From positions 1 to 64,000 of the forward strand of contig NZ_QKZK01000008.1 of NCBI RefSeq assembly GCF_003254275.1: a DNA stretch of 64,000 nucleotides, written 5' to 3'. Positions 16,101 to 37,244 of the stretch are shown piece after piece. Position 1 is the first letter of the stretch. Every line of letters begins with the position of its first letter. The notes below the pieces were generated by a model. That model had not been told where the DNA came from. It saw only the letters and a list, made by a program, of their open reading frames with translations, and made no database searches. The DNA comes from Breznakibacter xylanolyticus. GTDB lineage: Bacteria > Bacteroidota > Bacteroidia > Bacteroidales > Marinilabiliaceae. The position numbers and the translations under genes are program-made.

Positions 16101-16526
16101 TGTGGTTGGAACGTTTGTTGATGTACTTTCGTTATAAAACCGCACGGTTCCTGTTCCACCCCGATCCGTCGATTCCCAAATTTCCCACTCTTCGCCATAG
16201 CTTGGATTATTGCGATATTCAAGCCGAAAAGTACTACCAGCCTTGTCGTAAAAGGCTCGGGTGGTTCCCGAAACAGTGGTTGTCCCGGCATAGGTATAGG
16301 TTCCGTTGGGTTCAGAACCGGTAGCTACACCCCCCGAGACAACAACCGTTTGGGCTAAAATCGTCCCGCTGGTAAGCAACAAAAGAACCAGCAGCGTGAA
16401 AAAGATTTTAATGGATTGCAAGCGTGAAAGGTGCGTCATTGCTTTGGGATGATTGTTACACCCCGGGAGATGATGATTTTGATTCCCGGGAGATTTGAAC
16501 TGTTGAGAAGTAGTTGTGTCTTTCAT
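13167..16526 (-). CDS. Ig-like repeat adhesin with altered T9SS C-terminus
   Basis: This is a 1119-residue exported protein. A signal peptide (FFTLLVLLLLTSGTILAQ) follows either the first Met or, more plausibly, the Met at 16439 (MTHLSRLQ). Next come a beta domain, an IPT/TIG domain (ISPTSGPAGGGTSVTITGTD), and at least seven bacterial Ig-like repeats of the IPVTITFSESVTGF type, several nearly identical. A T9SS type A domain (YPNPCTDSFRVSG) ends abnormally: VLKLI is followed by FVFSGGSFVEFSA instead of KK and a stop. A deletion has joined the gene to half of its own terminator. Whether T9SS still sorts it is uncertain. Predicted role: adhesion. Confidence 0.8.
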   Translation of the reverse strand: MKDTTTSQQFKSPGNQNHHLPGCNNHPKAMTHLSRLQSIKIFFTLLVLLLLTSGTILAQTVVVSGGVATGSEPNGTYTYAGTTTVSGTTRAFYDKAGSTFRLEYRNNPSYGEEWEIWESTDRGGTGTVRFYNESTSTNVPTTGWKVEVGNTAPTVAYFAAPSVSGISPTSGPAGGGTSVTITGTDFTGVTAVQFGSTAATGFTVNSTTQITATAPAGSAGNVNVTVTTAGGTSTIGAANQYTYWTIPMVTSVAVPANATYGVGQNLDFTVNFNKAITVNATGGTPYLPITLNTGGTVNAAYNSGSGTSALTFRYTVAAGNNDADGVSVGSAITANGGTLKDGSGNNATLTLNSVSSTAGVKVDGVEPSVTTVSASTANGSYKIGDVIAITVQFSESVVVTGTPTLALATGGTAAYSSGSGSSTLTFSYTVGTGHVSADLDYTSTSSLSLAGGTIKDVAGNNASLTLASPGAANSLGANKAIVIDGVVPTVTITSTSAAITYTTPIPVTVTFSEAVTNFISSDVTLTNGTIGSFSGSGTTYTFSVTPSGQGLVTVAIAAGVAQDAAGNLSTAATSLTRTFDSVNPTVVLSTTAPSTTNAAIPVTVTFSEDVTGLSLSDFSVTNATLSALSGSGKTYTLTATPSAQGAVSISLPNASALDVAQLGNVASNQLNFTYDTGSPSVSITSASNSATNASPIAVTITFSESVSGFVVGDLTLTNGTASGFAGSGTTYTVNIAPSGQGLVTVAVAAGVAQDAAGNLSTAATSLTRTYDNVSPTVSITSASNSSTNASTIPVTITFSESVTGFIAGDLTVTNGTASGFAGSGTTYTVNIVPVGQGLVTVAIAAGVAQDAVGNLSAAATSLTRTFDNVSPTVSITSASNSSTNASTIPVTITFSESVTGFEVGDLTVTNGTYSVISGTGTTYTVNIAPSGQGLVTVAIAAGVAQDAAGNLCTAATSLTRTYDNEAPVISGVVNSGTYTSAQSRATLAKDAGTAVAYASGTAINASGSYVLTVTDAAGNLATASFTITLSTGIADERKPSLSVYPNPCTDSFRVSGIEQPADVTITDLTGRVVLKTMVDVDGDVPVGHLKQGTYLVKVNERVLKLIFVFSGGSFVEFSA

Positions 16527-16643: not shown

Positions 16644-17171
16644 TTAAGGTCTTACCGGGAAAAGACCTTGCCAACAAATAATATAGTTGAGACCCAGGGT
16701 GGGTTGCATGTTGTTGACAGGAGCACCGGTTCCGGTGGCACCAATGGCCTGCGCATTCATTTGCACATCGGTAGTAGCGGCATAATTACCACTGGTATCC
16801 TGATTAGGTGCCGGATAGTTGTTCTGAGGGGTCGCCACAATGTTTCGCCCGGTTGCGCTGGCATTGGCATTTAATGGGTGATTATGCGCCGGTAGCTGAG
16901 CGGTTGTTAAGGTATTGGTGTTGGTGCCTGTTTTCACTCCCAAATTAATGAGGGTTAATCCAGTTCCCTGGCGAGGTCCGGCAGGCACTCTTCCCCGAAG
17001 ATCAGGCAAGGCAAAAGTGTTTCTTCCATCACCACCGTAAGTAACACCTATTACTGCATACAATGTCTGATATTGATTAACAGGGAGTAATTGACCGTCG
17101 CAAAAAAGCCATCCCTCAGGGGCAAAGTTGCCTGCAAAAAGTACGATTGATCCAACGAAAGCATCTTCCAT
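16644..17171 (-). CDS. Phage tail-collar domain protein, copy A
   Basis: This is a 175-residue microcystin-dependent-protein/tail-collar family member. It opens with the typical VGSIVLFAGNFAPEGWLFCDGQLL, continues YGGDGRNTFALPDLRGRVPAG and LPAHNHPLNA, and ends NMQPTLGLNYIICWQGLFP. There is no signal peptide. Free-standing genes of this family occur widely in Bacteroidota outside prophages, and no other phage structural gene is present here. A close paralogue follows 115 bp upstream on the same strand. Function unknown; a trimeric fibre-like tip or carbohydrate-binding role is inferred from phage relatives. Confidence 0.85.
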   Translation of the reverse strand: MEDAFVGSIVLFAGNFAPEGWLFCDGQLLPVNQYQTLYAVIGVTYGGDGRNTFALPDLRGRVPAGPRQGTGLTLINLGVKTGTNTNTLTTAQLPAHNHPLNANASATGRNIVATPQNNYPAPNQDTSGNYAATTDVQMNAQAIGATGTGAPVNNMQPTLGLNYIICWQGLFPVRP

Positions 17172-17286
17172 AATTGAAAAGATTTAAGATAAATGAATTA
17201 TAAAATAGTTCAAAGGAAGGTATGTACAAGGGCTTCCCAACCTAAGAAGTGGCACTAAACCATAAAGAGTGTGCCAGTCAATGAAA

Positions 17287-17820
17287 TCAAGGACGTGCCG
17301 GGTAAAGCCCCTGGCAACAAATAATATAGTTGAGACCCAGGGTGGGTTGCATGTTGTTAACGGGTGCGGGTGTCGCTGTTCCTGCAATACCAATTGCCTG
17401 TGCATTCATTTGCACATCGGCTGTTGCGGCATAATTGCCACTGGTATCCTGATTCGGTGCCAAATAGTTGTTCTGAGGGGTCGGCACTATGTTTCGCCCG
17501 GTTGCGCTGGCATTGGCATTTAATGGGTGATTATGCGCCGGTAACTGAGAGGTTGTTAAGGTAATGGTGTTTGATCCCAATGCCTGACCTAAATTGATGG
17601 GTATTAAGCCATTTCCCTGGCGAGGTCCGGCAGGTACTCTTCCACGAAGGTCTGGCAAGGCAAATGTGGTGGTTCCGTTACCACCATAAGTAGTCCCAAG
17701 GAGTGAGAACAACGCATTATACTGATTAATATTCAGTATTTGACCATCGCAAAACATCCATCCCATTGGGGCGTAATTGCCTGCAAAAAGTACGATTGTT
17801 CCAAGATAAGCTTCATCCAT
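17287..17820 (-). CDS. Phage tail-collar domain protein, copy B
   Basis: This 177-residue paralogue of the preceding entry has the same framework: LGTIVLFAGNYAPMGWMFCD, FALPDLRGRVPAGPRQGNG, LPAHNHPLNANASATGRN and TLGLNYIICCQGLYPARP. Differences cluster in the first third and in a short insert (GIAGTATPAP). The two genes are a tandem duplication, probably co-transcribed with the methyltransferase fragments just upstream, as is often seen for this family. No catalytic residues are expected. Confidence 0.85.
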   Translation of the reverse strand: MDEAYLGTIVLFAGNYAPMGWMFCDGQILNINQYNALFSLLGTTYGGNGTTTFALPDLRGRVPAGPRQGNGLIPINLGQALGSNTITLTTSQLPAHNHPLNANASATGRNIVPTPQNNYLAPNQDTSGNYAATADVQMNAQAIGIAGTATPAPVNNMQPTLGLNYIICCQGLYPARP

Positions 17821-22386: not shown

Positions 22387-23958
22387 ATGCCCGATTTTTT
22401 TGAACCTGTTGATGAGAATTGTTATGGGGTGAAGGAGTTGAACCTCTTGCTCGAGTTTAGCGATTTGCTGAGCAATAAGGAGATTGATCTGAACCGGGTC
22501 ATCGGGCTGTTGGGGCAACACATCATGGCCGAGCGGATGATTTTAACCATCCTCAATCGCGAGAGCGCCCGCATCTTTATCGAGGGCACTTATGGCATCC
22601 CCGAGAGCGAAACCGCCGAAGTAATTTACAAGCTGGGCGAGGGGGTGGTCGGGTCGGTGATTAAAACCGGCGAAACGGTGTTTATTCCCAGTATTGCCGA
22701 TTCCAAACTGTTTCTCAATCGCACGCACTCACCCACCTCGGTCGATGGGGTGGCCGTATCGTTTGTGTGTGTGCCCATTCGTTATAAAGATGAGGTGATT
22801 GGCACCCTCAGTTTTCATAAGGCCTACAGGCGGCTGCAGGCTTATGCCGAACATGCCCGTTTGCTCAAAATTGTGGGGTCGATGATTGGTCGTGCCGTGC
22901 GACGCAAGCAGGAGTATGCCGAGGAGATGGAGCAGCTGCGCTCGGAGAACAGCCAGTTGCGCGGTCAGCTTAAGGAGCGCATCAAGCCCGACTACATCAA
23001 GGGCAACTCGGGTAAGATGAACGAGGTGTTTGCACTCATCGACAGCGTGGCCTCCACCGATGCCACGGTGCTCATTCGCGGCGAGAGTGGGGTGGGAAAG
23101 GAGCTCATTGCCGATGCCATTCATTATAATAGCACGCGCAAGGCCATGCCGTTCATCAAGGTGAATTGTGCGGCATTGCCCGAGAACCTGATCGAGAGTG
23201 AGCTCTTTGGGCACGAAAAGGGTGCGTTTACGGGTGCTAGCAACGTGCGCATTGGTCGTTTTGAAGCGGCCGATGGTGGCACCATTTTCCTTGACGAATT
23301 TGGCGAGATTCCCCTCTCCACCCAGGTGAAGCTGTTGCGGGTGTTGCAACAGCGCGAAATTGAGCGCGTGGGCAGCACCAAGCCCATTCTGGTGAATGTG
23401 CGCATCATCTGCGCCACCAACCGCAACCTCGAAAAGCTCATTGCCAGCGGAGAGTTTCGCGAGGATTTGTATTATCGCATCAACGTGTTTCCGTTGTATG
23501 TGCCCTCGTTGCGCGAGCGCATCAACGACATTCCCGTGCTCACCGATTTCTTTATCGACAAATTCAACAAACGTCACGGCAAAAACATCAAGCGCATCAC
23601 TTCTATGGCCATCGACATGCTGATGGTGTATCACTGGCCGGGCAACATCCGCGAACTGGAGAACTGCGTTGAACGAGCTTGCATTCTGTGCAACGATGGC
23701 GTCATCAGGGCGCACAACCTGCCGCCCACGCTGCAAACGGCCGCATCGAGCAAGACGGGCGAAACCGGAACGCTGGAAATGATTCTCGAGAAACACGAAA
23801 AGCAAATCATCATCGACGCCCTGGTGTCGACCAAGGGCAACATGGTGAAGGCCGCCACCCTGCTGGGCATCACTGAGCGAATGATGGGCATCCGCATCAA
23901 AAAATATGACATCGACCCCAAGCGCTTCAAGACCAAACATATCGAGGAGGGGGGCTGA
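22387..23958 (+). CDS. nifA: NifA-type sigma54-dependent activator
   Basis: A 523-residue activator. GAF domain (about 20-165), short coiled linker ([15 protein letters not shown]), then the AAA+ domain with Walker A GESGVGKE (232-239), the sigma54-contacting loop GAFTGA (279-284) and Walker [10 protein letters not shown] Fis-type HTH at the end ([19 protein letters not shown]) binds enhancers. It would switch on the nif promoters with -24/-12 elements listed below. Cysteines at CVERACILC just after the AAA+ core are noteworthy but do not match the classic oxygen-sensing spacing. Position beside mod and nif genes supports NifA over other enhancer-binding proteins. Confidence 0.88.
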
Positions 23959-24149: not shown

Positions 24150-24620
24150 ATGCCCCTCATTGACTTTCTGTTTTGCGACTACGAAAATCCCACGCATTTG
24201 CAAGAGCTGGCGCGCATGCTCAATCACTACATGGCCGACCCCATGGGCGGGGCCGAGCCACTCAATAAACTTCAACAGCTGCGCCTGGTAGATGGGCTGG
24301 CCAATCATCCGGCGTCGTTTGTGTTGTTTGTCACGGTTGATGATCAAGTCGCCGGCATGGCCACATGTTTTATCAATTTTTCCACCTTTAGGGTCAAACC
24401 CTACATCAATGTGCACGACATTGTGGTGGATACCCGTTATCGTGGTCAGGGGTTGGGACGGCAACTGATGCAGCGCATCATCGACATTGCCGCCGAGCGC
24501 GACTATTGCAAGGTGACCCTCGAAGTGCGCGACGACAATTTCGTGGCTCAGTCGCTCTATCGCAGCCTGGGGTTTGATGAGTGTGAGCCCAGAATGTATT
24601 TTTGGCAGAAGGTGCTGTAG
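24150..24620 (+). CDS. GNAT-family N-acetyltransferase
   Basis: A 156-residue single GNAT domain. The acetyl-CoA pyrophosphate-binding motif A is VVDTRYRGQGLGRQLMQRII (Q/RxxGxG/A form), preceded by beta strands INVHDIVV and followed by CKVTLEVRDDNFVAQSLYRSLGF, the motif B region. No membrane segment or fused domain. It lies between nifA and the nif accessory operon but has no obvious nif-type promoter; the substrate cannot be read from sequence. Confidence 0.85.
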   Translation: MPLIDFLFCDYENPTHLQELARMLNHYMADPMGGAEPLNKLQQLRLVDGLANHPASFVLFVTVDDQVAGMATCFINFSTFRVKPYINVHDIVVDTRYRGQGLGRQLMQRIIDIAAERDYCKVTLEVRDDNFVAQSLYRSLGFDECEPRMYFWQKVL

Positions 24621-24904
24621 TGAAGCAAAGTCCCCTGAAAGCCCCCCTAAATCCCCTGAAGGGGGACTTTGGGTTTGTTTCGTCTTTAATTGCTTTATTA
24701 GGTTTGTTTTGCACTTCTTTCCTCAGGCACTTTGTCGCTTTCTTCCTTTGCTGCTTCTCTTTTGCACTCTCCTCCTTTGCCACTTTGCTACTTTCCTCCT
24801 TTCCCCCCTCCCCGTCATTTTTACTCATTTTTCCCTACCTAAATGTAGTGCGTAAGATGAGGGGGTGTTTGTTAAGTGGTAGACATTCAGGTGTTAGTGT
24901 GTTG
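24621..24904. repeat. Intergenic low-complexity repeats
   Basis: CCCCCTAAATCCCCTGAAGG with its complementary GGGGGACTTT (a C/G hairpin also seen near 46090), then a pyrimidine-rich run of TTTGCCACTTTGCTACTTTCC-type words to about 24835. Relatives of that run occur at 41907 and 46150. No gene is supported here. Confidence 0.6.
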
Positions 24905-24920
24905 TGGTACGGCGTTTGTT
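24905..24920 (+). promoter_or_regulatory. Sigma54 promoter of the nif accessory operon
   Basis: TGGTACG-GCGT-TTGTT fits the -24/-12 pattern TGGCACG-N4-TTGCW closely and lies 34 bp before the start at 24954. It is the best -12 element of the four found in this window. Confidence 0.65.
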
Positions 24921-24953
24921 TTATCGGCATCAGTAACCCTAAAGCACGAAATT

Positions 24954-25355
24954 ATGAAAGTCGTTATTCCCGTCATCGACAAAAATGCCCAGCGATACAC
25001 CATTGCCGATGGTTTTAGCGAAACCGAGTGCATCTGTATTTACGACACGCACGACAATGATGTGGTGTGGCTCGAGAAGCGCTCCATCAGTCAGGACATG
25101 AGCGAGCTGCTGCCCGAGCTGGCACGCAACCAAATGACTCACATCATCACCCGATCGGTGCAGCCCATGGCTTTGAGTGTGCTTACGCGCAGTGGTTTCT
25201 CGGTGTTCAAGTCGATGGGCGACAACTTGTTTCTCAATCTCGAGTTGTTCAATCGTGAGTGTCTGCCCATTTTCAATATGAACGCGGCGATGCTCAATGC
25301 TTCGTCATGTGGCGGCGCCTGCAGTACCTGCCGGTCGGCCGACTGTAAAAACTGA
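24954..25355 (+). CDS. NifX/NafY-type FeMo-cofactor-binding protein with Cys-rich tail
   Basis: A 133-residue single-domain member of the dinitrogenase iron-molybdenum cofactor family (NifX, NafY and the NifB C-terminus): MKVVIPVIDKNAQRYTIADG, then YDTHDNDVVW and IITRSVQPMALSVLTRSG. The Met at 24954 is chosen because the family starts with this strand and a sigma54 element lies just upstream. The tail SSCGGACSTCRSADC has four cysteines in 13 residues and could hold a metal cluster; that tail is not part of the usual domain. Likely role: binding or carrying NifB-co or FeMo-co. Confidence 0.8.
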   Translation: MKVVIPVIDKNAQRYTIADGFSETECICIYDTHDNDVVWLEKRSISQDMSELLPELARNQMTHIITRSVQPMALSVLTRSGFSVFKSMGDNLFLNLELFNRECLPIFNMNAAMLNASSCGGACSTCRSADCKN

Positions 25356-25382
25356 TTGAACCACCTTAAAAACCATTTCACC

Positions 25383-25622
25383 ATGTCCATTGCCAATGCC
25401 ATGACGTTCATTAAGAATGTCGAAACCAACAAGTCGCTGCGCAAGGCTTGCTATGCCTGCAAAAGCAAAGATGAGTTGCTGGCCATGCTGGCCGGCCAAA
25501 AAATGGCCTTCTCGCAGTTTGAGTTCGATGAGGCCGTGAATGTGATGCTTTTTAAGTGTCAAAGTTACGAGCAGGCCGACTCGGTGAAGCAGACCGAGGT
25601 TTGGTTCAGCCTTTTTAGATGA
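25383..25622 (+). CDS. Nif11-like domain protein
   Basis: A 79-residue protein starting at 25383 (MSIANAMTFIKNVETNKSLR). The pattern (small start, hydrophobic helix, LRKACYACKSKDELLAMLAG, EFDEAVNVM) matches the Nif11 domain, named for a small nitrogen-fixation protein and also used as a leader in some RiPP precursors. No core peptide follows the domain, and no RiPP enzyme is nearby, so the ancestral nif-associated role is more likely. It starts 27 bp after the NifX-like gene and probably shares its transcript. Confidence 0.65.
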   Translation: MSIANAMTFIKNVETNKSLRKACYACKSKDELLAMLAGQKMAFSQFEFDEAVNVMLFKCQSYEQADSVKQTEVWFSLFR

Positions 25623-25655
25623 ATGCCATCCATCCATCCATTAAAATCAACTCTC

Positions 25656-26006
25656 ATGATACACGACACATTATCTGCCGCACCCCTTTCGGGGCAACCG
25701 GTTCGCTTTAATAACCTCGACAAGGTTCGCTTTATCATCAAAGATGCCACCAGCCTGGATGTGGCTTATGCTTACGACGATTTGGTGTTTGCCGAAAATG
25801 CCGTCTTCATCCTGCAATTCGACCCGCTGGATACCCGTGCCTATTTTTGCTATTTCAATGCCGACTGTCATGAGGCCAATCGGGTGGCCTTGATGGCCAG
25901 TCTGCATGCTTCGGCCGAGCTTAACGCCGCATCTATCACTTATAAGGGGCAGTTTGAGCTGTTGATGAACGGGCAGGAGGATACTTTTGGTGTGCGCTTT
26001 TTTTAA
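25656..26006 (+). CDS. Conserved-looking nif-island protein of unknown function
   Basis: A 116-residue soluble protein from the Met at 25656 (MIHDTLSAAPL). It is third in the sigma54-driven operon, 33 bp after the Nif11-like gene. It looks like a compact alpha/beta domain with alternating strands (VRFIIKDAT, AVFILQFDPLD, RAYFCYFNADC) and a final strand EDTFGVRFF. Two cysteines (YFCYFNADC) are close together. I do not recognise the family; operon position suggests a role tied to nitrogenase maturation or control. Confidence 0.65.
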   Translation: MIHDTLSAAPLSGQPVRFNNLDKVRFIIKDATSLDVAYAYDDLVFAENAVFILQFDPLDTRAYFCYFNADCHEANRVALMASLHASAELNAASITYKGQFELLMNGQEDTFGVRFF

Positions 26007-26032
26007 TATGAATGTTTGAATATTTGCCGTTG

Positions 26033-26064
26033 AAAAAGGGTGCCGCATGCGGCACCCTTTTTTT
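26033..26064. terminator. Strong bidirectional terminator
   Basis: AAAAAGGGTGCCGCATGC and its mirror form a perfect stem closing the accessory operon, followed by T8. It lies between convergent genes and could stop both transcripts. Confidence 0.85.
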
Positions 26065-26128: not shown

Positions 26129-26551
26129 TTAACCCAATGAATTTATTCTTTTTTCGACCAACGCTTTTATTTCGCCAATGCCGGTGATCATTTGTTCGAT
26201 GTCGGCATCGGTGGGGGTGCGGTAGCCAAAGCCTTCGAGAGAGCAGATGGCTTCAAATTTGCCCACCAAAATGCAGGTTTGTTTCATGGTGTCGGTCAGT
26301 TCGGGCTCCACGGCTTTAGTTTCGTTGAACAGGGCTTGCGGCATGTGGTGTTCGGCGTGTTGGTCGTAGCTGGCCAGCAGACCCACGAAGTATTTCTCAA
26401 CGCACATCACGGCCATGTTGTAGCGCAAATCGTTGTTGAATCGTTTGGAGCTGGTGAGGCCGCGCAGCAGAGCCATGTAGTAGCCGTTGGCATATTCTAT
26501 GCAGTCGGTGGCCAGTTTTTTCATTTCGAGGTCTGTGGTGAGTGTTTCCAT
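26129..26551 (-). CDS. HEPN-like nif-associated protein
   Basis: A 140-residue all-helical protein (METLTTDLEMKKLATDCIEY). The pattern YNMAVMCVEKYFVGLLASYD, then HAEHHMPQAL and KFEAICSLEGFGYRTPTDAD resembles HEPN-fold domains, but the RNase motif RxxxxH typical of HEPN toxins is not evident. It lies alone on the minus strand between the accessory operon and nifH, with a sigma54-like element about 218 bp upstream facing it. A small-molecule-binding or cell-size role is only a guess; the promoter argues it is expressed with nif genes. Confidence 0.6.
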   Translation of the reverse strand: METLTTDLEMKKLATDCIEYANGYYMALLRGLTSSKRFNNDLRYNMAVMCVEKYFVGLLASYDQHAEHHMPQALFNETKAVEPELTDTMKQTCILVGKFEAICSLEGFGYRTPTDADIEQMITGIGEIKALVEKRINSLG

Positions 26552-27000: not shown

Positions 27001-27846
<846 letters not shown>

Positions 27847-27854
27847 CAAACGGC

Positions 27855-27958
27855 GAAGAGCGATGATTGGGTTCCGGACAGACGGACAAGACAAAAAAAC
27901 GGATGCTCTATTCTTGATTTATCTTCTCTGTCTGTTTTCCGCGCCAATCATCGTCTTC
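27855..27958. repeat. Long hairpin between nifH and nifI1
   Basis: GAAGAGCGATGATTGG (27855-27870) pairs with CCAATCATCGTCTTC (27944-27958) apart from one bulge, enclosing GACAGACGG and CTGTCTG blocks of the dispersed AGACAGAT family. On the transcript it could cap the nifH message and make it outlast the downstream genes. Confidence 0.7.
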
Positions 27959-27996
27959 CCTCACAATCATCAATTCATTGTCCATAAAAAGTAAAA

Positions 27997-28008
27997 GGAG
28001 GAAACCCT
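27997..28008 (+). promoter_or_regulatory. Strong Shine-Dalgarno of nifI1
   Basis: AAAGGAGG followed by AAACCCT and ATG. Canonical spacing; unusual because the surface and housekeeping genes of this window largely lack such sites. Confidence 0.75.
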
Positions 28009-28335
28009 ATGTTTTTATTAAGAGCCATTGTACGTCCCGAAAAATCACCCGTGGTGATGAAAGCGTTGTTCGATGCCGGTTTTCCGGCGGTAACCAAAAG
28101 CTCCGTGTTTGGTCGCGGTAAGCAGCGTGGTCTTAAGGTTGGCAACGTCACCTACGACGAACTGCCCAAAGACCTGTTGATGATCATGATTAACGAAAAG
28201 GACAAGGACTTTGTGGTGGAAACCATCATGAATGCGGCTCGCTCGGGCGAGAACGGTCAGTTTGGCGACGGTAAAATCTTTGTCACTCCGGTGGTAGAGT
28301 CATACACCATCTCAAGCGGTAAAAAGGAAATTTAA
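28009..28335 (+). CDS. nifI1: Nitrogenase-regulating PII-like protein NifI1
   Basis: A 108-residue GlnB-family trimer subunit. Family features: FLLRAIVRPEKSPVVMKALF at the start, the T-loop VFGRGKQRGLKVGNVTYDEL, and GDGKIFVTPVVESYTI near the end. In archaea and anaerobic bacteria NifI1 and NifI2 form a complex that binds NifDK and blocks electron transfer when ammonium rises, sensing 2-oxoglutarate and ATP. The position between nifH and nifD is the hallmark of that system. Confidence 0.93.
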   Translation: MFLLRAIVRPEKSPVVMKALFDAGFPAVTKSSVFGRGKQRGLKVGNVTYDELPKDLLMIMINEKDKDFVVETIMNAARSGENGQFGDGKIFVTPVVESYTISSGKKEI

Positions 28336-28583
28336 CCAGCGGGGAGTCTTGGTGTGGGGCTTAACACAGAGTCAGAATAAACGCAAAGGCGCGAAGGCGC
28401 TGAGTTATTTTGTTGCGCCATGCGTTTAAATAACAAAGCAGATAACTCAAAAGAGTTATATAATAGATGTTAAGATACAGAGGGAGAATCGGAGTTCCTG
28501 TGTCAGGCATTGAAAACTCTGTGCCTCTGTGTTCATTGAAAACTCGGTGTCGAGAAATCAGTTTCACATTAAAATCTATCATC
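28336..28583. repeat. Spacer with CACAGAG-type dispersed repeat
   Basis: The nifI1-nifI2 spacer contains TTAACACAGAGTCAG near its start and CTCTGTGCCTCTGTGTTCA near its end, complementary in part. A relative lies at about 57525-57565. No gene is supported. Confidence 0.55.
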
Positions 28584-28949
28584 ATGAAGTTAATACTTGC
28601 CATCATACGCATCGCTAAGATGCAGGAGACCAAGGAGGCCCTCTCGGCCGTTGATCTCCCATCTTTCACCGCCATGTCGGTGCTCGGGCGGGGTAACGGC
28701 CACGGCGACCTCGAAAAGGCTGCCGAAGTGAGCGCCCAGTACCACGAGCTCATCACCGACATGCCACGTCTCAAATCCAAACGGATGATCACCCTGGTGG
28801 TCACCGACGACAAAAAAGATTTGGCCGTGCAAACCATTATTAAAGCCAATCAAACCGGCAAAAGCGGCGACGGGAAAATCATTGTGGTCAATGCCACCGA
28901 TTCTATCCGCGTGCGCACCGGCGAACGAGGCGATTCGACACTTGATTAA
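28584..28949 (+). CDS. nifI2: Nitrogenase-regulating PII-like protein NifI2
   Basis: A 121-residue GlnB-family partner of NifI1. I start it at the Met at 28584 (MKLILAIIRIAKMQETKEAL), where PII similarity begins; codons upstream lie in a dispersed repeat. The NifI2-type T-loop is SVLGRGNGHGDLEKAAEVS, and GDGKIIVVNATDSIRVRTGE closes the fold. There is no Tyr51 uridylylation site of GlnB. It ends 17 bp before nifD. Together with NifI1 it gives reversible ammonium switch-off without ADP-ribosylation. Confidence 0.93.
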   Translation: MKLILAIIRIAKMQETKEALSAVDLPSFTAMSVLGRGNGHGDLEKAAEVSAQYHELITDMPRLKSKRMITLVVTDDKKDLAVQTIIKANQTGKSGDGKIIVVNATDSIRVRTGERGDSTLD

Positions 28950-28966
28950 TTGAGGAGGACAATACT

Positions 28967-30604
28967 ATGGGCGACAAAAAGAAAGTGGACTTGACGACCT
29001 TTAAGGACGCAGTCCTGGATAAATACCCCAAAAAAGTGGGGAAAAAACGGGCCAAGGCCATCATCAATAACGACCCCGACAATATGCCGGTCATTCAGGC
29101 CAACATCCGCACCATCCCCGGCATCATCACCCAGCGCGGGTGTACTTACGCCGGTTGTAAAGGGGTGGTGCTCGGGCCTACCCGTGACATTGTGAACATC
29201 ACGCACGGCCCCATCGGTTGCGGTTTTTACTCGTGGCTCACTCGACGCAACCAAACTAAAACAGAAAGCGATCAGGATGCCAACTTCATCCCTTACTGCT
29301 TCAGCACCGATATGCAGGACAGCAATATCGTGTTTGGCGGAGAGGAAAAACTGAAACAAGCCATCCGCGAAGCCCGCGAACTCTTCAATCCCAAGGCCAT
29401 TGCCATTTTTTCGACCTGCCCCGTGGGGTTGATTGGTGACGATGTGCACCGTGTGGCCCGACAAATGAAAGAGGAGTTCAACAACGAGGTCAACATTTTT
29501 GGGTTCTCGTGTGAAGGTTACCGCGGTGTGTCACAAAGTGCCGGTCACCACATTGCTAACAACCAGTTGTACAAAAACCTTATTGGCAACGACGACAACG
29601 TCACGCCCAAATCAAAGTTCCGCGTCAACCTGTTGGGCGAGTACAACATTGGCGGCGATGCTTTCGAAATTGAACGCATCTTTGAGAAATGCGGCGTTGA
29701 GCTGGTCTCTACCTTCTCGGGCAACTCCACCGTGTCGTCGTTTGAGCAGGCTCACACGGCCGACCTCACCCTGGTGATGTGTCACCGTTCTATCAACTAT
29801 GTGGCCGAAATGTTGGAGACCTCCTTTGGGATACCCTGGTTCAAGGTGAGTTTCATTGGCGCACAGGCATCGGCCAAGGCCATGCGCAAGGTGGCCGCTT
29901 ATTTCAACGATCCCGAGCTCACCGAGCGCATCGAAAAAGTGATTGCCGAAGAACTCAAAATTGTTGAAGCCGCTCGCCAGGTGGCGCTGCCCAAAACCAA
30001 TGGCAAAACGGCCATGCTTTTCGTAGGCGGATCGCGGGCTCACCATTATCAGGATCTGTTTGAAGAATTGGGCGTGACCACCCTCTCGGCCGGTTACGAA
30101 TTCGGTCACCGCGACGATTACGAAGGACGCCGCGTGATCCCAACCATCCAAATTGATGCCGACAGCCGCAACATCGAGGAAATCACTGTCACCAAAGACG
30201 AAGCCCGCTTTAAGGAGCGCATGACCCCCGATGTCCTCAAGAAAATGGAAGACGCCCTGGGCAAAGACGAAGTGGAATACAACGACTACAACGGTCTCAT
30301 GGCTCAAATCGGCAAAGGAGCCCTGGTGATTGACGACCTCAGCCACTACGAAATGGAAAAACTCATCGAGCTCTACCATCCCGACATCTTCTGTGCCGGT
30401 ATCAAAGAGAAGTATGCTGTGCAAAAAATGGGCATCCCTCTCAAACAGCTGCACAACTACGATTCGGGCGGCCCTTATGCCGGATTCCAAGGCGCCATGA
30501 ACTTTTACAACGACATCGCCATGATGGTTTCTACCTCCATCTTCAAGGAAATCAAAGCCCCCTGGGAGCGCGAAGAAGTCGTGGAAGCTTCCTATGTCTA
30601 TTGA
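28967..30604 (+). CDS. nifD: Nitrogenase MoFe protein alpha chain NifD
   Basis: The 545-residue chain binds FeMo-cofactor and half of the P-cluster. P-cluster cysteines: Cys59 (RGCTYAG), Cys85 (HGPIGC), Cys151 (STCPVG). FeMo-cofactor ligands: Cys272 (VMCHRSINY) and His496 (QLHNYDSGGPY). The catalytic His lies in VSQSAGHHIAN, and GVVLGP carries the Val at the substrate channel. An insert of about 50 residues near 395-455 is the mark of the clostridial and anaerobe NifD lineage. No anfG or vnfG gene follows, so this is a Mo enzyme. It has a strong Shine-Dalgarno sequence (GAGGAGG). Confidence 0.97.
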   Translation: MGDKKKVDLTTFKDAVLDKYPKKVGKKRAKAIINNDPDNMPVIQANIRTIPGIITQRGCTYAGCKGVVLGPTRDIVNITHGPIGCGFYSWLTRRNQTKTESDQDANFIPYCFSTDMQDSNIVFGGEEKLKQAIREARELFNPKAIAIFSTCPVGLIGDDVHRVARQMKEEFNNEVNIFGFSCEGYRGVSQSAGHHIANNQLYKNLIGNDDNVTPKSKFRVNLLGEYNIGGDAFEIERIFEKCGVELVSTFSGNSTVSSFEQAHTADLTLVMCHRSINYVAEMLETSFGIPWFKVSFIGAQASAKAMRKVAAYFNDPELTERIEKVIAEELKIVEAARQVALPKTNGKTAMLFVGGSRAHHYQDLFEELGVTTLSAGYEFGHRDDYEGRRVIPTIQIDADSRNIEEITVTKDEARFKERMTPDVLKKMEDALGKDEVEYNDYNGLMAQIGKGALVIDDLSHYEMEKLIELYHPDIFCAGIKEKYAVQKMGIPLKQLHNYDSGGPYAGFQGAMNFYNDIAMMVSTSIFKEIKAPWEREEVVEASYVY

Positions 30605-30614
30605 TATTTCTCAT

Positions 30615-30641
30615 CCTGTCAGGGTGTGAAACCCTGACAGG
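30615..30641. repeat. Hairpin between nifD and nifK
   Basis: CCTGTCAGGGT, loop GTGAA, ACCCTGACAGG. It is a perfect stem without a T run, so it is more likely a dispersed repeat or processing site than a terminator. Confidence 0.7.
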
Positions 30642-30678
30642 GTCAGAAAAAATTGAAACAATTTAAAACATCATTCCC

Positions 30679-32058
30679 ATGCTACTACGTCACACAACCC
30701 CCAAAGAAATAGACCGGCAGGCCCTTACCATCAACCCCGCCAAGACCTGTCAGCCCATCGGTGCCATGTACGCCGCCTTAGGATTGCACGGATGCCTGCC
30801 CCACAGCCACGGCTCGCAAGGTTGCTGCTCTTACCATCGAAGCGCCCTGACCCGCCATTTCAAAGAGCCCGTGATGGCCGCTACCAGCTCCTTCTCCGAA
30901 GGCTCTTCGGTGTTTGGCGGTTCGGCCAACCTCGTGCAGGCCATCGACACCATCTTTACCGTCTATAACCCCGACATCATTGCCGCCCACACCACCTGCC
31001 TGAGCGAAACCATTGGTGATGACATGACCCAAATCGTGTCCAAAGCCCACGAAGACGGTGTGGTACCCGAAGGCAAGCACGTCATCTATTGCAACACCCC
31101 CAGCTACGTGGGAACCCACGTCACCGGATACGCCAACCAGGTGACCGCTTTTGTCAAATTCTTCTCAAAGGCCACGCCCAAAAAACGCAACGTCGTGAAC
31201 CTGGTGGCCGGATGGATGGAACCCGCCGACATGCGCGAAATCAAACGCATGGCCAACGTCCTGGAAGCCCGCACCATCATGTTCCCCGACATGTCCGACG
31301 TGCTCGACGCGCCTCTCGACGGCAAGCACCACATGTACCCCAAGGGTGGTACCACCATCCCCGACATGGTGGCCACCGGCGACAGCAAGTTCTCCATCGG
31401 ATTGGGCAAATACACCACCGAAGATGCCTGCATCCTGCTCGACAACAAGTGCAAGGTTAAATTCGAAGTGGTCGATATCCCCATCGGCCTCAAGGCCACC
31501 GACCGATTCATCACTTCGCTCAGTCGTCATGCCAACGTGCCCGTGCCCGATGCCATCACCGACGAACGCGGCCGTCTCATCGACTTCATTGCCGACAACC
31601 ACGGCCACTTCTATGGCAAACGCGTGGCGCTGTGGGGCGATCCCGACACCCTCATCCCGCTGTGCGAGTTCCTCGTTTCCATGGACATGCGTCCCGTGTA
31701 CATCGTCACCGGAACTCCCGGAAAACCCTTCGACGAGCGCATGGCCGCCATCCTCAAGGACATCCCCGAGGTTAAGTTCATGAGCGGCGAACGCGCCGAC
31801 ATGTTCCGCATGCACCAGTGGATTAAGCAAGAAGGCGTCGACCTGCTCATCGGAAACACCTATGGCAAGTACATTGCCCGCGACGAGAACACCCCCTTCG
31901 TGCGACTGGGATTCCCCATCGCCGACCGTGCCGGACACAACTTCAACCCCAAAACCGGCTACGTGGGCGCCACCAACCTGGCCATCGACATCCTAAACGC
32001 ACTGCTCGATCACCGCGACCGCACATGCGCCGAGGAAAAATTCGAATTCCAACTATAG
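30679..32058 (+). CDS. nifK: Nitrogenase MoFe protein beta chain NifK
   Basis: The 459-residue chain completes the P-cluster in the NifDK tetramer. The cysteines are Cys24 (AKTCQPIGA), Cys49 (GSQGCCSYHR) and Cys107 (HTTCLSETIGDD), with the P-cluster Ser in NTPSYVGTHV. It lacks the roughly 50-residue N-terminal arm of the Azotobacter protein, as in other anaerobes with an insert-bearing NifD; the two traits go together. The operon hairpin at 30615 separates it from nifD by 74 bp. Confidence 0.97.
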   Translation: MLLRHTTPKEIDRQALTINPAKTCQPIGAMYAALGLHGCLPHSHGSQGCCSYHRSALTRHFKEPVMAATSSFSEGSSVFGGSANLVQAIDTIFTVYNPDIIAAHTTCLSETIGDDMTQIVSKAHEDGVVPEGKHVIYCNTPSYVGTHVTGYANQVTAFVKFFSKATPKKRNVVNLVAGWMEPADMREIKRMANVLEARTIMFPDMSDVLDAPLDGKHHMYPKGGTTIPDMVATGDSKFSIGLGKYTTEDACILLDNKCKVKFEVVDIPIGLKATDRFITSLSRHANVPVPDAITDERGRLIDFIADNHGHFYGKRVALWGDPDTLIPLCEFLVSMDMRPVYIVTGTPGKPFDERMAAILKDIPEVKFMSGERADMFRMHQWIKQEGVDLLIGNTYGKYIARDENTPFVRLGFPIADRAGHNFNPKTGYVGATNLAIDILNALLDHRDRTCAEEKFEFQL

Positions 32059-32152
32059 TCTCTCTCTTCTGTATCGCGTTTTTTTCAACCCTGCCCCAAC
32101 GTTTTGTTGGGGTGGGGTTTTGTGCGTTCCGTCCGTTTTGTCCGTTTCGTCC

Positions 32153-32180
32153 GTAGAGACAGGGCATGCCCTGTCTCTAC
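32153..32180. repeat. 28-bp perfect palindrome (copy 2)
   Basis: Same sequence as at 21414. It is preceded by short CGTCCGTTTTGTCCGTTTCG repeats and lies just after nifK. Confidence 0.9.
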
Positions 32181-32246
32181 CTGCATGTCGTGCCGGCAAT
32201 GCCCCCCTAAAAATGTTACAACCCGAAATTTCGCCTCCGTTTTTTG

Positions 32247-32390
32247 CTGCAAACGTGCAGCAGCCTAAAATTCCTCGTGGATAGCTCCTGCACGTCTGCA
32301 GCAGCCTAAAATTCCGCGTGGTTTGCTCCTGCACGTCTGCGGCGACCTAAAATTCCGCATTTTGACCTGCTGCACGTCTGCGGCTGGCCG
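32247..32390. repeat. 41-bp tandem repeat between nifK and nifE
   Basis: CTGCACGTCTGCAGCAGCC or a close variant starts at 32247, 32288, 32329 and 32370, exactly 41 bp apart. Three full units and part of a fourth are present, each with CTAAAATTCC in the middle. CTGCACGTCTGCAG is itself near-palindromic. The 32059-32691 interval holds this array, two palindromes and the nifE promoter but no gene. Confidence 0.9.
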
Positions 32391-32436
32391 TCGTGTCGGA
32401 ATGGCGGTCGTCGTTATCGTCATTGTCATCGTCATC

Positions 32437-32464
32437 GTAGAGACAGGGCATGCCCTGTCTCTAC
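32437..32464. repeat. 28-bp perfect palindrome (copy 3)
   Basis: Identical to the copies at 21414 and 32153. It follows a short run of GTCATCGTCATCGT repeats. Confidence 0.9.
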
Positions 32465-32613
32465 CCCCCCCCGCCCAATCCTACCCAAACGTAACATTCC
32501 CCCCATAACCCCACCCCGATGTACCCCTTTTCAACGCCCCTGTTTTAGGGTGCGAAAATTATCCCGCACACCATCAGTTGGTTATGTGTGTGGTAAATGT
32601 TAAAATCCAGGCG

Positions 32614-32629
32614 TGGCACGGTTTTTAGA
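32614..32629 (+). promoter_or_regulatory. Sigma54-like promoter of nifE
   Basis: TGGCACG-GTTT-TTAGA: a perfect -24 half and a weak -12 half, with TGTGTGGTAAATGT 14 bases upstream (32587-32600). nifE starts at 32692 behind a strong Shine-Dalgarno sequence (GAGGAGGGTGA). Confidence 0.55.
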
Positions 32630-32691
32630 TATCCTTCATCACGCAATACAGTCATACAATCGTCAAACCAACGATAGAGGAGGGTGAACCG

Positions 32692-34017
32692 ATGAGCTAC
32701 ATTCTGAACGAGAGAAAAAATCAAGTGTCACACGCCGGCATCAACGCCGACACCGTGGCCTGCAACAAGCCCAGCCTGGCCGGAAGCGTGAGTCAGCGCG
32801 CCTGCGTGTTTTGCGGCTCCCGCGTGGTGCTGTACCCCATTGCCGATGCTCTGCACCTCATTCACGGCCCCATTGGCTGCGCGGCCTACACCTGGGACAT
32901 CCGCGGATCCATGTCGTCGGGCCCCGAGTTGCACCGCATGAGCTTCTCAACCGACCTGCACGAAAAAGAAGTCATTTTTGGCGGCGAGCCCAAACTTTAT
33001 GCCTCCCTCATCGAGCTCATCGACAAGTACCAGCCCAAGGCCGCCTTCGTTTACACCACTTGCATTGTGGGCGTCATTGGCGACGACGTGGAGCGCATTT
33101 GCCGACAAGTGACCCGTGAAAAAGGCATCCCCGTGCTTCCTGTGCAGGCTCCCGGATTCCAGGGTTCAAAAAAGGATGGATATAAGGTGGCCTGCGAAAC
33201 CCTTTTCAACCTGGTGGGAACCCTTAATCTGCCCACCCCTAAGTACAGCATCAACATCCTGGGCGACTTCAACCTGGCCGGAGAGCTGTGGATATTGCTC
33301 GATTACTACAAGCGAATGGGGGTGCACGTCAATGCCACCATCACCGGCGACGGCCGTGTCGATGCCATCCGCAACGCTCACAACGCCGCCCTCAACGTGG
33401 TGCAATGCTCCGGATCGATGAACTATCTGGCAAAAATGATGAAGGACACCTACGGCATTCCCTCCATGCGTGTCTCCTACTTTGGTATCGAGGACATGAG
33501 CGACGCCCTTTACGATGTGGCTCGTTTTTTCAAAAGCGATGAAATGATGGACAAAGCCCGTGATCTCGTCCGCGACGAGTTTCAGCGTCTGATGCCTGCC
33601 CTGGCCTGGTATCGTGAGCGACTGCAGGGCAAAAAAGCCGCTATTTACGTTGGTGGTGCCTTCAAGGCCATCTCGCTCATCAAAGCGCTGCGGCTCATTG
33701 GCGTGCAGTCGGTCATCGTGGGCTCGCAAACCGGCACCCCCGAAGATTACGAGCTCATCAAACAGCTCTGCGATGAGGGAACCATCATTGTCGATGACTC
33801 CAACCCTGTGGAGCTCTCCAATTTTGTGAAGGAAAAGGAGGCCGACATTTTCATTGGCGGCGTCAAGGAACGACCCATCGCCCACAAAATTGGCCTCGGG
33901 TTTTGCGACCACAACCACGAGCGCAAAGAGCCTCTGGCCGGTTACGAAGGCATGATGAATTTCGCCAAAGAGATATACGCCACCGCCATGAGCCCCGTGT
34001 GGCGATTCACCAAATAA
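32692..34017 (+). CDS. nifE: FeMo-cofactor scaffold subunit NifE
   Basis: The 441-residue NifD paralogue forms the NifEN scaffold on which the cofactor precursor from NifB receives Mo and homocitrate. It shows RACVFCGSRV and LIHGPIGCAAYTWDIRG (cluster cysteines), TTCIVGVIGDDVE, and VPVQAPGFQGSKKDGYK. The active-site His ligand region of NifD is not kept in the same form, as expected for a scaffold. It is the first gene of a nifE-nifN transcript with its own sigma54-like element. Confidence 0.95.
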   Translation: MSYILNERKNQVSHAGINADTVACNKPSLAGSVSQRACVFCGSRVVLYPIADALHLIHGPIGCAAYTWDIRGSMSSGPELHRMSFSTDLHEKEVIFGGEPKLYASLIELIDKYQPKAAFVYTTCIVGVIGDDVERICRQVTREKGIPVLPVQAPGFQGSKKDGYKVACETLFNLVGTLNLPTPKYSINILGDFNLAGELWILLDYYKRMGVHVNATITGDGRVDAIRNAHNAALNVVQCSGSMNYLAKMMKDTYGIPSMRVSYFGIEDMSDALYDVARFFKSDEMMDKARDLVRDEFQRLMPALAWYRERLQGKKAAIYVGGAFKAISLIKALRLIGVQSVIVGSQTGTPEDYELIKQLCDEGTIIVDDSNPVELSNFVKEKEADIFIGGVKERPIAHKIGLGFCDHNHERKEPLAGYEGMMNFAKEIYATAMSPVWRFTK

Positions 34018-34020
34018 TTG

Positions 34021-34046
34021 TAGAGACAGCCCATGGGCTGTCTCTA
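34021..34046. repeat. Variant palindrome between nifE and nifN
   Basis: TAGAGACAGCCCA followed by its exact reverse complement. It belongs to the family at 21414, but the core is AGCCCATGGGCT instead of AGGGCATGCCCT. Symmetry is kept although the core has changed. Confidence 0.85.
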
Positions 34047-34068
34047 TCCATCAAAAAAACAAAAAAAT

Positions 34069-35442
34069 ATGAAACCCACATACACCTCCACCCGCAACGC
34101 CTGCAAACTGTGTGCTCCCCTGGGCGCCTCGCTGGTATTCAAAGGCATCGAAGGCTGCGTGCCCCTCATTCACGGGTCACAGGGCTGTGCCACCTACATT
34201 CGCCGGTACATGATCAGCCACTACAAAGAACCGGTGGACATCGCCTCGTCCAACTTTAGCGAAGAGACCACCGTGTTTGGCGGCAACAAAAACTTCATCA
34301 CCGGCATCAATAACATCCGCTCACAATATCATCCCGATGTGGTGGGCATCGCTTCCACCTGTTTGAGTGAGACCATCGGGGAAGATGTGCCCGGGCTGAT
34401 CCGAGAGTATGGCGAAGTGAATGCCGGGACGCACATCCCCCGATTTGTCAACGCCTCCACCCCCAGCTATTGCGGTACCCACATGGATGGCTTTCATCAC
34501 ACCGTCACTGCCACCCTCAAAGCCATGGCTCAGGCCGGAACCCAAGGGGAGCACATCAACATTCTGCCCGGGTTTGTGTCGCCGGCCGACCTCCGCTATC
34601 TCAAAGAGGTGCTCGAAGATTTTGGCATCGACTACGTGTTGTTTCCCGATTACTCCGAGAGTCTCGATAACGTGCACACCCGCGAGTACCAGCTCATTCC
34701 CTCGGGTGGCACACCGGTGCGGCGCATCGAAATGACCGGAACAGCCAAGGCCACCATCGAGTTTGGTACCGTGTTCAACAAAGGCGCCGTGCGCACCAAG
34801 GGACCCAATCACATCGAGAGCGCCGGCGAATATCTTCAACGCGCCTTCGACGTGCCCAACCATCAGATGCGCATGCCCATTGGCATTGATGCTTCCGACA
34901 AGTTTTTCGACACGCTGGCCACCCTCAGTGGTCGTCCTGTGCCCGAGAAGTATCAAAAGGAACGCGGCCGCCTGATTGATGCCTATGTGGATGCTCACAA
35001 GTACGTCTTTGGCAAACGGGCAGCCCTGTACGGCGAAGAAGATCTGGTGCTGGGAATGGTGGGTTTCTTCGAGGAGATTGGCGTGCACACCGTGTTGGCC
35101 TCTTCGGGCGGCGAAAGCGGCTTGCTCAAGCGTGAGGTCGATAAGCTGCTGCAAACCGACAACGACACCCGGGTGGTCAATGGCATGGACTTCGCCTCCA
35201 TCCGCGAAGAGGTGAAGGCGCTTGCCCCCGACTTCCTCATCGGCAACAGCAAAGGTTACTACATCAGCCGCGAGCTGCAAATCCCCCTGGTGCGCATCGG
35301 TTTCCCCATTCATGATCGTTTTGGCGCTGCCCGCATACACCACATCGGCTACCGCGGCACCCAGGAGTTGTTCGACCGCGTGGTCAACGCCATCATCGAA
35401 TACAAGCAAGACCATGCTTCGGTAGCTTACAAATACATTTAG
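34069..35442 (+). CDS. nifN: FeMo-cofactor scaffold subunit NifN
   Basis: The 457-residue NifK paralogue and partner of NifE. The start at 34069 (MKPTYTSTRNACKLCAPLGA) aligns with the family; the few codons upstream lie in the palindrome. Visible: NACKLCAPLGA, IHGSQGCATYIRRYM, STCLSETIGEDV and ASTPSYCGTHMDGFH, paralleling the P-cluster positions of NifK. SNFSEETTVFGG is typical of NifN. Gap to nifE is 51 bp, all palindrome, so the two should be translated from one message. Confidence 0.94.
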   Translation: MKPTYTSTRNACKLCAPLGASLVFKGIEGCVPLIHGSQGCATYIRRYMISHYKEPVDIASSNFSEETTVFGGNKNFITGINNIRSQYHPDVVGIASTCLSETIGEDVPGLIREYGEVNAGTHIPRFVNASTPSYCGTHMDGFHHTVTATLKAMAQAGTQGEHINILPGFVSPADLRYLKEVLEDFGIDYVLFPDYSESLDNVHTREYQLIPSGGTPVRRIEMTGTAKATIEFGTVFNKGAVRTKGPNHIESAGEYLQRAFDVPNHQMRMPIGIDASDKFFDTLATLSGRPVPEKYQKERGRLIDAYVDAHKYVFGKRAALYGEEDLVLGMVGFFEEIGVHTVLASSGGESGLLKREVDKLLQTDNDTRVVNGMDFASIREEVKALAPDFLIGNSKGYYISRELQIPLVRIGFPIHDRFGAARIHHIGYRGTQELFDRVVNAIIEYKQDHASVAYKYI

Positions 35443-35461
35443 GTGAATTGATGTGAGATAT

Positions 35462-35556
35462 AAGACACAAGTATCAAGACACAAGTATCAAGACGCAAGA
35501 TGAATTTAGTAGAGATTTAGGATGCTTGATACTCACATCTTGATACTTGATACTCG
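35462..35556. repeat. AGTATCAAGACACA-type dispersed repeat
   Basis: Tandem AAGTATCAAGACACA words followed by inverted TTGATACTCACATCTTGATA. It is the counterpart of the block at 24094 and fills the nifN-nifB gap. Confidence 0.65.
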
Positions 35557-35581
35557 AAAATTAAATTTAAAACCAACAGCC

Positions 35582-36844: not shown

Positions 36845-36871
36845 TAGATACGCCATTAATGGCGTATCTAC
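36844..36871. repeat. Variant 28-bp palindrome after nifB
   Basis: GTAGATACGCCATT and its exact reverse complement, starting in the nifB stop codon. It has the same length and ends as the 21414 family, with a quite different but still self-complementary core. Confidence 0.85.
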
Positions 36872-36935
36872 CGCCCCCCATAAAATGGCGTCTCTACCGC
36901 CTAAAAATACCATTTTATAATTCAATCTATCTGTC

Positions 36936-37244
36936 ATGAAAAAACCAACTTATCACATTTTGGTGTGCAACTCGTTTCGGGTTGCCGGCGATGCGCAAGG
37001 CGCGTGTAACAAAAAAGGGGCAACCAACCTGCTGCAGTACCTTACTGAGGAGTGTTCCGACCGGGGCATTGACGTGGCTGTGTCGTGCACGGCTTGTTTG
37101 AACGTCTGTTCTGAAGGGCCGGTAATTGTCATCCACCCCAACAACTTTTGGTATGGCAAGGTGAACGGCGAAGAGGCCATCGACGAAATCCTTGATGCCC
37201 TCGAAAACAACGAGCCTTGCGAAAAGTACCTGATCTCGAATTGA
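36936..37244 (+). CDS. Nif-associated thioredoxin-fold [2Fe-2S] ferredoxin
   Basis: A 102-residue protein of the shethna/NuoE-like 2Fe-2S ferredoxin type. Cluster ligands are probably Cys11 (LVCNSFR), Cys24 (QGACNKKG), and Cys54 and Cys58 (CTACLNVCSEGP). The end CSEGPVIVIHPNNFWYGKV is the family signature. Homologues are commonly encoded beside nifB or nifEN and can bind or protect nitrogenase or donate electrons. It follows nifB by 91 bp and precedes nifV, so it is likely part of the same expression unit. Confidence 0.9.
   Translation: MKKPTYHILVCNSFRVAGDAQGACNKKGATNLLQYLTEECSDRGIDVAVSCTACLNVCSEGPVIVIHPNNFWYGKVNGEEAIDEILDALENNEPCEKYLISN

Follow-up and report, generated by a model that had tools for sequence, protein, structure and literature searches.

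The NifX fold is shared by the nitrogenase proteins NifX, NafY and NifY and the C-terminal domain of NifB (PF02579), and also by the orange protein ORP, which carries a Mo-Cu cluster. In Azotobacter vinelandii, residue 35 of NifX is reported to bind NifB-co (PMC13128457). The N-terminal domain of AnfO is described as NifX-like and as binding the apo-FeFe protein, not FeMo-co, a tethered second domain then capturing the cofactor (PMC11938142). IssA, another protein of this fold, is reported to handle iron and sulfide and to carry a tail of 70 residues that is rich in glycine, aromatic and cationic residues and contains one cysteine (PMC5524996). NifO has been tied in A. vinelandii to nitrate and to the sharing of molybdenum (PMC5249018), and a 2026 catalogue of the nitrogen-fixation machinery, in its available text, places NifO under 'unknown' (PMC12903952). 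The nitrogenases of Bacteroidales are assigned to group III, and a survey of nif clusters in this order names, in its available text, nifHDKENB, a glnB-like gene, ferredoxin, nifA and mod genes (PMC4356463); the three genes that concern us here are not among them. Nor did we find a description of this trio, or a mutant phenotype for it, in the titles and abstracts of the literature searched, a scope that mostly left subscription papers outside.

We have analysed a stretch of 64,000 nucleotides from Breznakibacter xylanolyticus, referred to below as the window, in which three small genes (P1, P2 and P3) lie beside a nif cluster. The features that matter for the argument are as follows.

22387 to 23958, + strand: NifA-type sigma-54 activator with GAF, AAA+ and Fis HTH parts; 512.4 bits against TIGR01817, narrowly missing the cut-off of 528.85.
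24150 to 24620, + strand: GNAT acetyltransferase; the order NifA-GNAT-P1-P2 is retained in several relatives.
24870 to 24885, + strand: TGT-N10-ACA, a possible but weak NifA upstream site that few relatives carry.
24905 to 24920, + strand: sigma-54 -24/-12-like element TGGTACGGCGTTTGTT, 2 mismatches to TGGCACN5TTGCW.
24954 to 25355, + strand: P1, 133 aa; NifX-fold protein with the cofactor histidine replaced and a C-terminal cysteine tail (C119, C123, C126, C131).
25383 to 25622, + strand: P2, 79 aa; N-terminal half a Nif11 domain, C-terminal half conserved with KCQ.
25656 to 26006, + strand: P3, 116 aa; small alpha/beta protein outside known families with a YAYDDLVF core, linked to NifO in Chlorobi and deltaproteobacteria.
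26032 to 26063, + strand: intrinsic terminator, a 14-pair stem followed by a T run.
26129 to 26551, - strand: P4, a predicted HEPN-fold protein convergent with P3; in relatives it lies 3' of nifV and adjoins P3.
27022 to 38664, + strand: nifH, nifI1, nifI2, nifD, nifK, nifE, nifN, nifB, ferredoxin and nifV, the nif cluster beside the trio.

An earlier reading made from the sequence alone had described three small genes with short gaps ahead of a strong terminator, and the open reading frames bear this out: the intergenic spacings are 27 and 33 nt, and the stem of the terminator is the longest among 14 matches between 22000 and 28500. The names within the nif cluster, nifH excepted, were assigned by eye and from the identical gene order in relatives, and mod-type transport genes were also recognised by eye in the window. 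We note that the window further contains, again by eye, two adjacent and similar phage tail-collar-like proteins (16644-17820, - strand) and a long protein built of many similar repeated domains and probably secreted (13167-16526, - strand).

That the trio would form an undescribed nif accessory operon was the central proposal of the sequence-only reading, which had named in advance a lack of co-conservation with nif as one finding that would count against it. Among 149 genomes of the order, queried with the window proteins for P1 and P3, with the family profile for P2 and with TIGR01287 at E<=1e-80 for nifH, we find nifH in 11, P1 in 7, P2 in 9 and P3 in 8, and every genome with P1, P2 or P3 is nifH-positive (Fisher 1e-9 to 7e-13). 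The eight P3 genomes are spread over eight families, and in three of these families a nifH-less relative among those searched (G143, G004 and G018) also has no P3. P3 is on a different contig from nifH in G042, G096, G037 and G132, with no nif gene recognised around it; in G064 some 250 kb separate it from nifH, and in G123 its contig differs from that of nifH but bears a nifV-like gene. Because P3 is unlinked to nif in several genomes, the co-occurrence is not due to proximity alone. Losses are also seen, since one nifH-positive genome of 1.2 Mb (G091) is without P1, P2 and P3, another (G078) has P1 only, G029 has no P3, and P1 is absent from G118, G037 and G123. No part of the trio is universal among nifH-positive genomes, and so none can be required for nitrogen fixation everywhere.

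The association extends beyond the order. In a phylum set of 345 genomes, the P3 profile finds 73 genomes and nifH is present in 77, with both in 71. One family, apparently Chlorobiaceae as judged from contigs shared with the scan described next, dominates these counts, which are therefore not independent. nifH occurs without P3 in six (G385, G269, G333, G395, G411 and G431) and P3 without nifH in G454, which is 85% complete, and in G239, where the match is weak and partial. Scanned with a single peptide pattern, the GTDB 220 species set yielded 184 P3-coding stretches, the best 80 of which were kept; 17 Chlorobi records were left out of the resulting count of 63 loci and of the nifH search, the Chlorobiales record L201 staying in. 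Core nif genes flank P3 in 16 of these 63 loci, and 44 of the other 47 are in nifH-positive genomes (both counts from the best 80 of 184). L132 gave no nifH match, yet has nifB, nifV and nifA in its flank; L130 gave none either and has a nifV-like gene in the flank, and L137 has neither a nifH match nor a nif gene within its short flank. Order set and scan overlap, as L158, L159, L165, L170 and L193 are apparently G123, G042, G096, G037 and G132. The records with P3, among the best 80 of 184, are titled Paludibacter, Draconibacterium, Maribellus, Mangrovibacterium, Sunxiuqinia and Lutibacter, and further Chlorobium, several deltaproteobacteria, Pontiella, a spirochaete and an Opitutales MAG, many of them being MAGs whose titles and binning may be wrong. 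In the class of strain NaphS2 (85 genomes), P3 occurs in 3 and nifH above cut-off in 5, the two coinciding in 2; G604 carries P3 but gave no nifH match, and G560, G563 and G572 have nifH without P3. In G604 and the nifH-positive G605 (L226 and L227), P3 has a TRAP-type transporter on one side and a GTPase-like gene on the other, as judged by eye, and is outside any nif context. The check for co-conservation thus comes out in favour of the proposal: across lineages the genes occur with nif, including where they are distant from it, the exceptions being G604, G454, L137 and the weak match in G239, and co-occurrence in the order, phylum and scan sets lends good support to a putative nif accessory operon. 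That P1-P2-P3 form a nif accessory module we regard as almost certain. The patchy distribution agrees with a mixed origin in which P3 predates P1 and P2 and is more widespread than they are.

The arrangement of the module varies among relatives. Within 2.5 kb of P3 at the 63 scan loci (from the best 80 of 184), the types are P1-P2-P3 at 17, P1-P3 at 7, P2-P3 at 8 and P1-P2 convergent to P3 at 10, with only an inverted weak P2 match at one and neither P1 nor P2 at 20. The convergent type sets nifB-ferredoxin-nifV-P4-P3 against NifA-GNAT-P1-P2, and at L177, L187 and L195 a nifHDK run is followed by P3. In Chlorobi, P3 is a lone gene or comes directly after NifO, and is distant from nif in most loci mapped. 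P4 adjoins P3 or nifV in several diazotrophs, for which reason it is likely a fourth member of the module, as far as gene order tells; at L134 a P4-like gene (21% identity to P4) lies between P3 and NifO. The predicted P4 model (pLDDT 90) gives six top structural matches with Z of 13.6 to 14.6, rmsd of 2.5 to 3.9 and 112 to 126 aligned residues, against a caution level of 13 for helical models, and five of the six are titled HEPN. Two side observations may be recorded here: in a spirochaete MAG, a small protein that looks FeoC-like by eye, with a C-x3-C-x2-C-x2-C motif of its own, follows P3 (L181:8281-8529); and G064 holds, at L049 (G064:C5), a second nifH together with nifB, a stand-alone NifX-like gene and genes that are only 21-25% identical to nifK and nifE of the window, a divergent nitrogenase-like cluster.

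The sequence-only reading had also placed the trio under sigma-54 control, behind what it called the best sigma-54 element in the window. TGGTACGGCGTTTGTT lies 49 nt 5' of the P1 start and scores 26/30 (p=0.017, in a test confined to the 250 nt before P1) by a weighted -24/-12 matrix, with weights entered by hand, that gives the nifH site 25. It is not literally the best, as a site with 1 mismatch exists at 10661-10676, among the 200 of 361 matches listed in the window; and consensus matches with up to 3 mismatches number 361 window-wide against 368 expected, which is no excess over chance, so that TGGTACGGCGTTTGTT by itself proves little. Relatives are more informative. The best sigma-54 site has p<0.05 at 23 of 39 P1 heads and at 12 of 170 control genes drawn from 55 scan loci (Fisher 4e-12, a value that serves as a guide because the relatives are not independent; 2 of 41 P1 heads were too short and were dropped), and 19 of those 23 sites sit 37-100 nt ahead of the start codon. 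Sites scoring >=23 at 35-105 nt ahead of the start are present at 19 of 39 P1 heads, a figure counted by hand, and at 8 of 170 controls; all 9 nifH heads score in the test. In the Chlorobi-rich phylum set, sites were found ahead of P3 or NifO-P3 at 2 of 29 heads and we claim none there, so the proposed control gains support from the Bacteroidales relatives and not from that set. TGT-N10-ACA, the possible NifA upstream site, precedes P1 in 5 of 39 cases and nifH in 2 of 9; these counts have no shuffle control and are unused as evidence.

P1 joins a NifX-like domain to a cysteine tail. Taken alone, the window protein falls under the PF02579 cut-off (19.4 against 26.3 bits); its family reaches PF02579 at E<=1 in 26 of 27 members, the best value being 9e-7, and the family profile matches solved NifX-fold proteins, among them 1rdu_A at 6e-13, MTH1175 and others. 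The four tail cysteines do fall within 13 residues, as had been noted from the sequence alone, and are conserved in 39, 39, 39 and 38 of 40 sequences; these and the other column counts cover 40 of 41 sequences, L130 being omitted because its reading frame is cut. Cys28 is conserved in 35 of 40; 40 of 41 sequences carry C-x2-4-C-x2-C-x2-6-C and 38 of 41 carry C-x3-C-x2-C. A second P1 copy in G029 (L037:6407-6814) has a single tail cysteine left and is the sole P1 without either pattern. The histidine of the HFG motif of stand-alone NifX aligns with His35 of the A. vinelandii protein (9ian_E), and at the corresponding position P1 has Gly in 23, Ser in 9 and Asp in 6 of 40 sequences (one of the three in 38/40). 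A histidine two residues beyond this position is found in 19 of 40 relatives and is absent from the window P1. In a tree, the P1 sequences group as one clade of 28 (support 0.59) to which neither NifX nor the NifB C-terminal domain belongs. There is no NifX model among the NCBIfam matches of P1; the best named subfamilies, both weak, are MrpORP (10 of 27 members, best 3.9e-4) and AnfO (9 of 27, best E 0.01). By these comparisons P1 makes up a subfamily of its own within the NifX fold. The domain had earlier been called cofactor-binding; the NifX-like fold stands, and the replacement of the cofactor histidine makes a NifX-type carrier role less likely. A derivation of P1 from the C-terminal domain of NifB was also considered and rejected, as profile comparison gave a probability of 3.6% (E 0.012) for that domain against 60% (8.5e-5) for stand-alone NifX. 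As a separate matter, NifB of the window (35522-36844) and of relatives ends in a CGxxC...GC tail, a second cysteine-rich end on a NifX-like domain.

In the phylum set of 345 genomes, the P1 profile has matches at E<=1e-4 in 25, and the strong matches (E<1e-30) are in G000 and G385 only, both nifH-positive. Of 20 loci examined, 18 besides the window and G385 have weaker matches; all 18 are without the four-cysteine tail and were for that reason excluded from the P1 counts, and in 14 of the 18 the frame that matches best contains HFG. For Chlorobi, the profile matches and loci examined include no true P1. P2 narrowly exceeds the cut-off of the Pfam Nif11 model (PF07862; 24.3 against 23.8 bits) and falls under that of the RiPP-leader model TIGR03798 (25.9 against 32.3 bits). 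The KCQ segment of its C-terminal half is conserved, being altered in L158 and L160, and the best match of its profile to PDB sequences has an E of 0.52, regarded as chance.

P3 was said from the outset to belong to no recognised family, and our searches agree: it has zero matches in Pfam at E<=10 and in NCBIfam just two tryptophanase models far under cut-off (16.5 bits against 285). A Pfam scan of 17 family members gave 8 families, each in a single member, which we regard as chance, as we do the best match of the P3 profile to PDB sequences (E 0.061). The predicted model (pLDDT 87) has the element order H-EEEE-H-EE; Foldseek finds no match for it in the PDB below E 0.001 (best E 0.13), and in structural comparison the best Z is 5.7 (rmsd 2.7, 72 aligned), with unrelated entries tied. 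The element order had raised the suspicion of a class I chaperone-like topology; no such structural match is listed, and nothing is excluded thereby. The family has no invariant Cys or His.

The strongest clue to P3 is its genetic linkage to NifO. In the draft genome of NaphS2, a single open reading frame of 253 residues fuses NifO (TIGR01616, 1.8e-50) to P3; we saw no other such fusion. At 14 of the 29 loci from the phylum set, a NifO-type gene is directly 5' of P3, every one of them within the 27 Chlorobi-family loci, with a gap of 3-4 nt in 12 of the 14, one of which is a partial reading frame; most of these calls come from a profile built from three NifO sequences, TIGR01616 having been checked for G204 and a few others. 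Three deltaproteobacterial MAGs (L134, L154 and L186) have NifO 3' of P3, and G064 (L041) has it 5' of P1-P2. The NifO-like proteins examined have one cysteine in common, in a PGCxN motif, and as a putative partner of NifO P3 points to Mo or thiol chemistry. However, of 33 genomes searched, only 5 have NifO above cut-off (in the two Chlorobi-type families, 1 of 11), and no match was found in the genome of B. xylanolyticus, so P3 cannot depend on NifO always.

These findings suggest that the trio probably takes part in providing nitrogenase with metal or cofactor. As our main reading, P1-P2-P3 would be a nitrogenase module, controlled in Bacteroidales by NifA and sigma-54, for the supply of metal or cofactor or the fidelity of that supply. 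The histidine-less NifX-type domain of P1 would dock on immature nitrogenase or its scaffold (apo-NifDK or NifEN), by analogy with the AnfO N-terminal domain on the apo-FeFe protein, and its tethered four-cysteine tail would carry or capture a metal or Fe-S species; P3 would be the partner of NifO, an ArsC/Spx-like nitrogenase-associated protein, and P2 a small adaptor, the three jointly supplying metal or cofactor or keeping the supply faithful. A histidine-less NifX-like domain with a tethered cysteine tail agrees with docking together with the handling of metals or clusters, and we put the probability of this mechanism as proposed at about 0.45. A more specific version, in which P3 and NifO (or another thiol protein where NifO is absent) form a two-part thiol and metal trafficking complex of anaerobic nitrogenases that hands a Mo or Fe-S unit to P1 docked on NifDK or NifEN, is speculative and unlikely to hold in full.

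Several other explanations draw on the same observations. P1 might sit on apo-nitrogenase as a gatekeeper, its cysteine tail stripping wrong metals or damaged clusters and NifO-P3 acting as thiol partner, with no delivery at all; AnfO offers a precedent for this too, the single common cysteine of NifO-like proteins agrees with it, and loss of the trio from some diazotrophs is consistent with an optional fidelity role. The similarity between P1 and AnfO is weak, though, and we think this reading rather unlikely. In line with the storage or delivery role that the sequence-only reading had called possible, P1 could be a carrier of NifX/NafY type for NifB-co or FeMo-co, for which the fold (PF02579 in 26/27 at E<=1; solved structures at 6e-13) and the linkage to nif speak; this is quite improbable given Gly, Ser or Asp at the His35 position in 38 of 40 P1 sequences, a nearby histidine in just 19 of 40 and not in the window P1, and a tree position outside both NifX and the C-terminal domain of NifB (support 0.59).

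Storage of Fe-S or metal, as thioferrate in the manner of IssA or as in ORP, would be in keeping with the shared fold superfamily and with the MrpORP matches in 10 of 27 members (best 3.9e-4); a tail of 70 residues and one cysteine in IssA against about 15 residues and four cysteines in P1 leaves this very unlikely. Nif11-derived RiPP precursors are known (PMC2887384), and the Nif11 domain of P2 could accordingly mean that the operon makes a modified peptide, but P2 is under the TIGR03798 cut-off, its C-terminal half is conserved and shows no variable core, and no modifying enzyme was noticed by eye in the open reading frame lists of the window, all of which makes this reading hard to credit. 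Equally implausible is that the trio are chance neighbours of nif with no role in nitrogen fixation: P3 does lie by a TRAP-type transporter in two NaphS2-class genomes, one without a nifH match, but the co-occurrence persists where the genes are unlinked, across eight families of one order, and P3 and nifH occur together in records titled as several phyla (among the best 80 of 184).

Group III nitrogenases are far less studied than the Azotobacter nitrogenase, and genes required for full nitrogenase activity matter for the transfer of nitrogenase to new hosts. Since P3 tracks nif across lineages and is fused once to NifO, it offers a concrete handle on NifO. If true, a P3-NifO-P1 relay would be a cofactor supply route that we have not found described for any nitrogenase.

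Lastly, the module can be set beside the known systems. P2 has its N-terminal half in common with the Nif11 family (PF07862, TIGR03798), and the KCQ-bearing C-terminal half is extra. NifO (TIGR01616) is a genetic partner of P3 and a separate protein, and we saw no match that relates P3 to it. Monothiol glutaredoxin-BolA pairs, which join a single-cysteine thioredoxin-fold protein to a small alpha/beta partner, may be an analogy for how NifO and P3 work, the BolA fold being set beside P3 by description only; P3 differs in its modelled element order and in having no invariant Cys or His. P1 resembles NifX, NafY, NifY and the NifB C-terminal domain in fold and nif context, and differs from the NifX/NafY/NifY group as a clade of its own with a conserved Cys28 and a four-cysteine tail; NifY and NafX are reported to lack the cofactor histidine as well (PMC13128457). 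With IssA and ORP it shares the NifX-fold domain, whereas the type of tail and the linkage to nif differ, the Gly-rich cationic tail of IssA being replaced by a short, cysteine-rich one. P1 fails the AnfO model (TIGR02940; 14.2 bits, cut-off 129.15), and where AnfO has a C-terminal domain the single-domain P1 has a short cysteine tail. AnfO offers the best precedent for the mechanism of P1, by analogy: in both, a NifX-like domain that does not bind the cofactor, or in P1 lacks the histidine for doing so, is tethered to a second element, which in P1 would be the cysteine tail.
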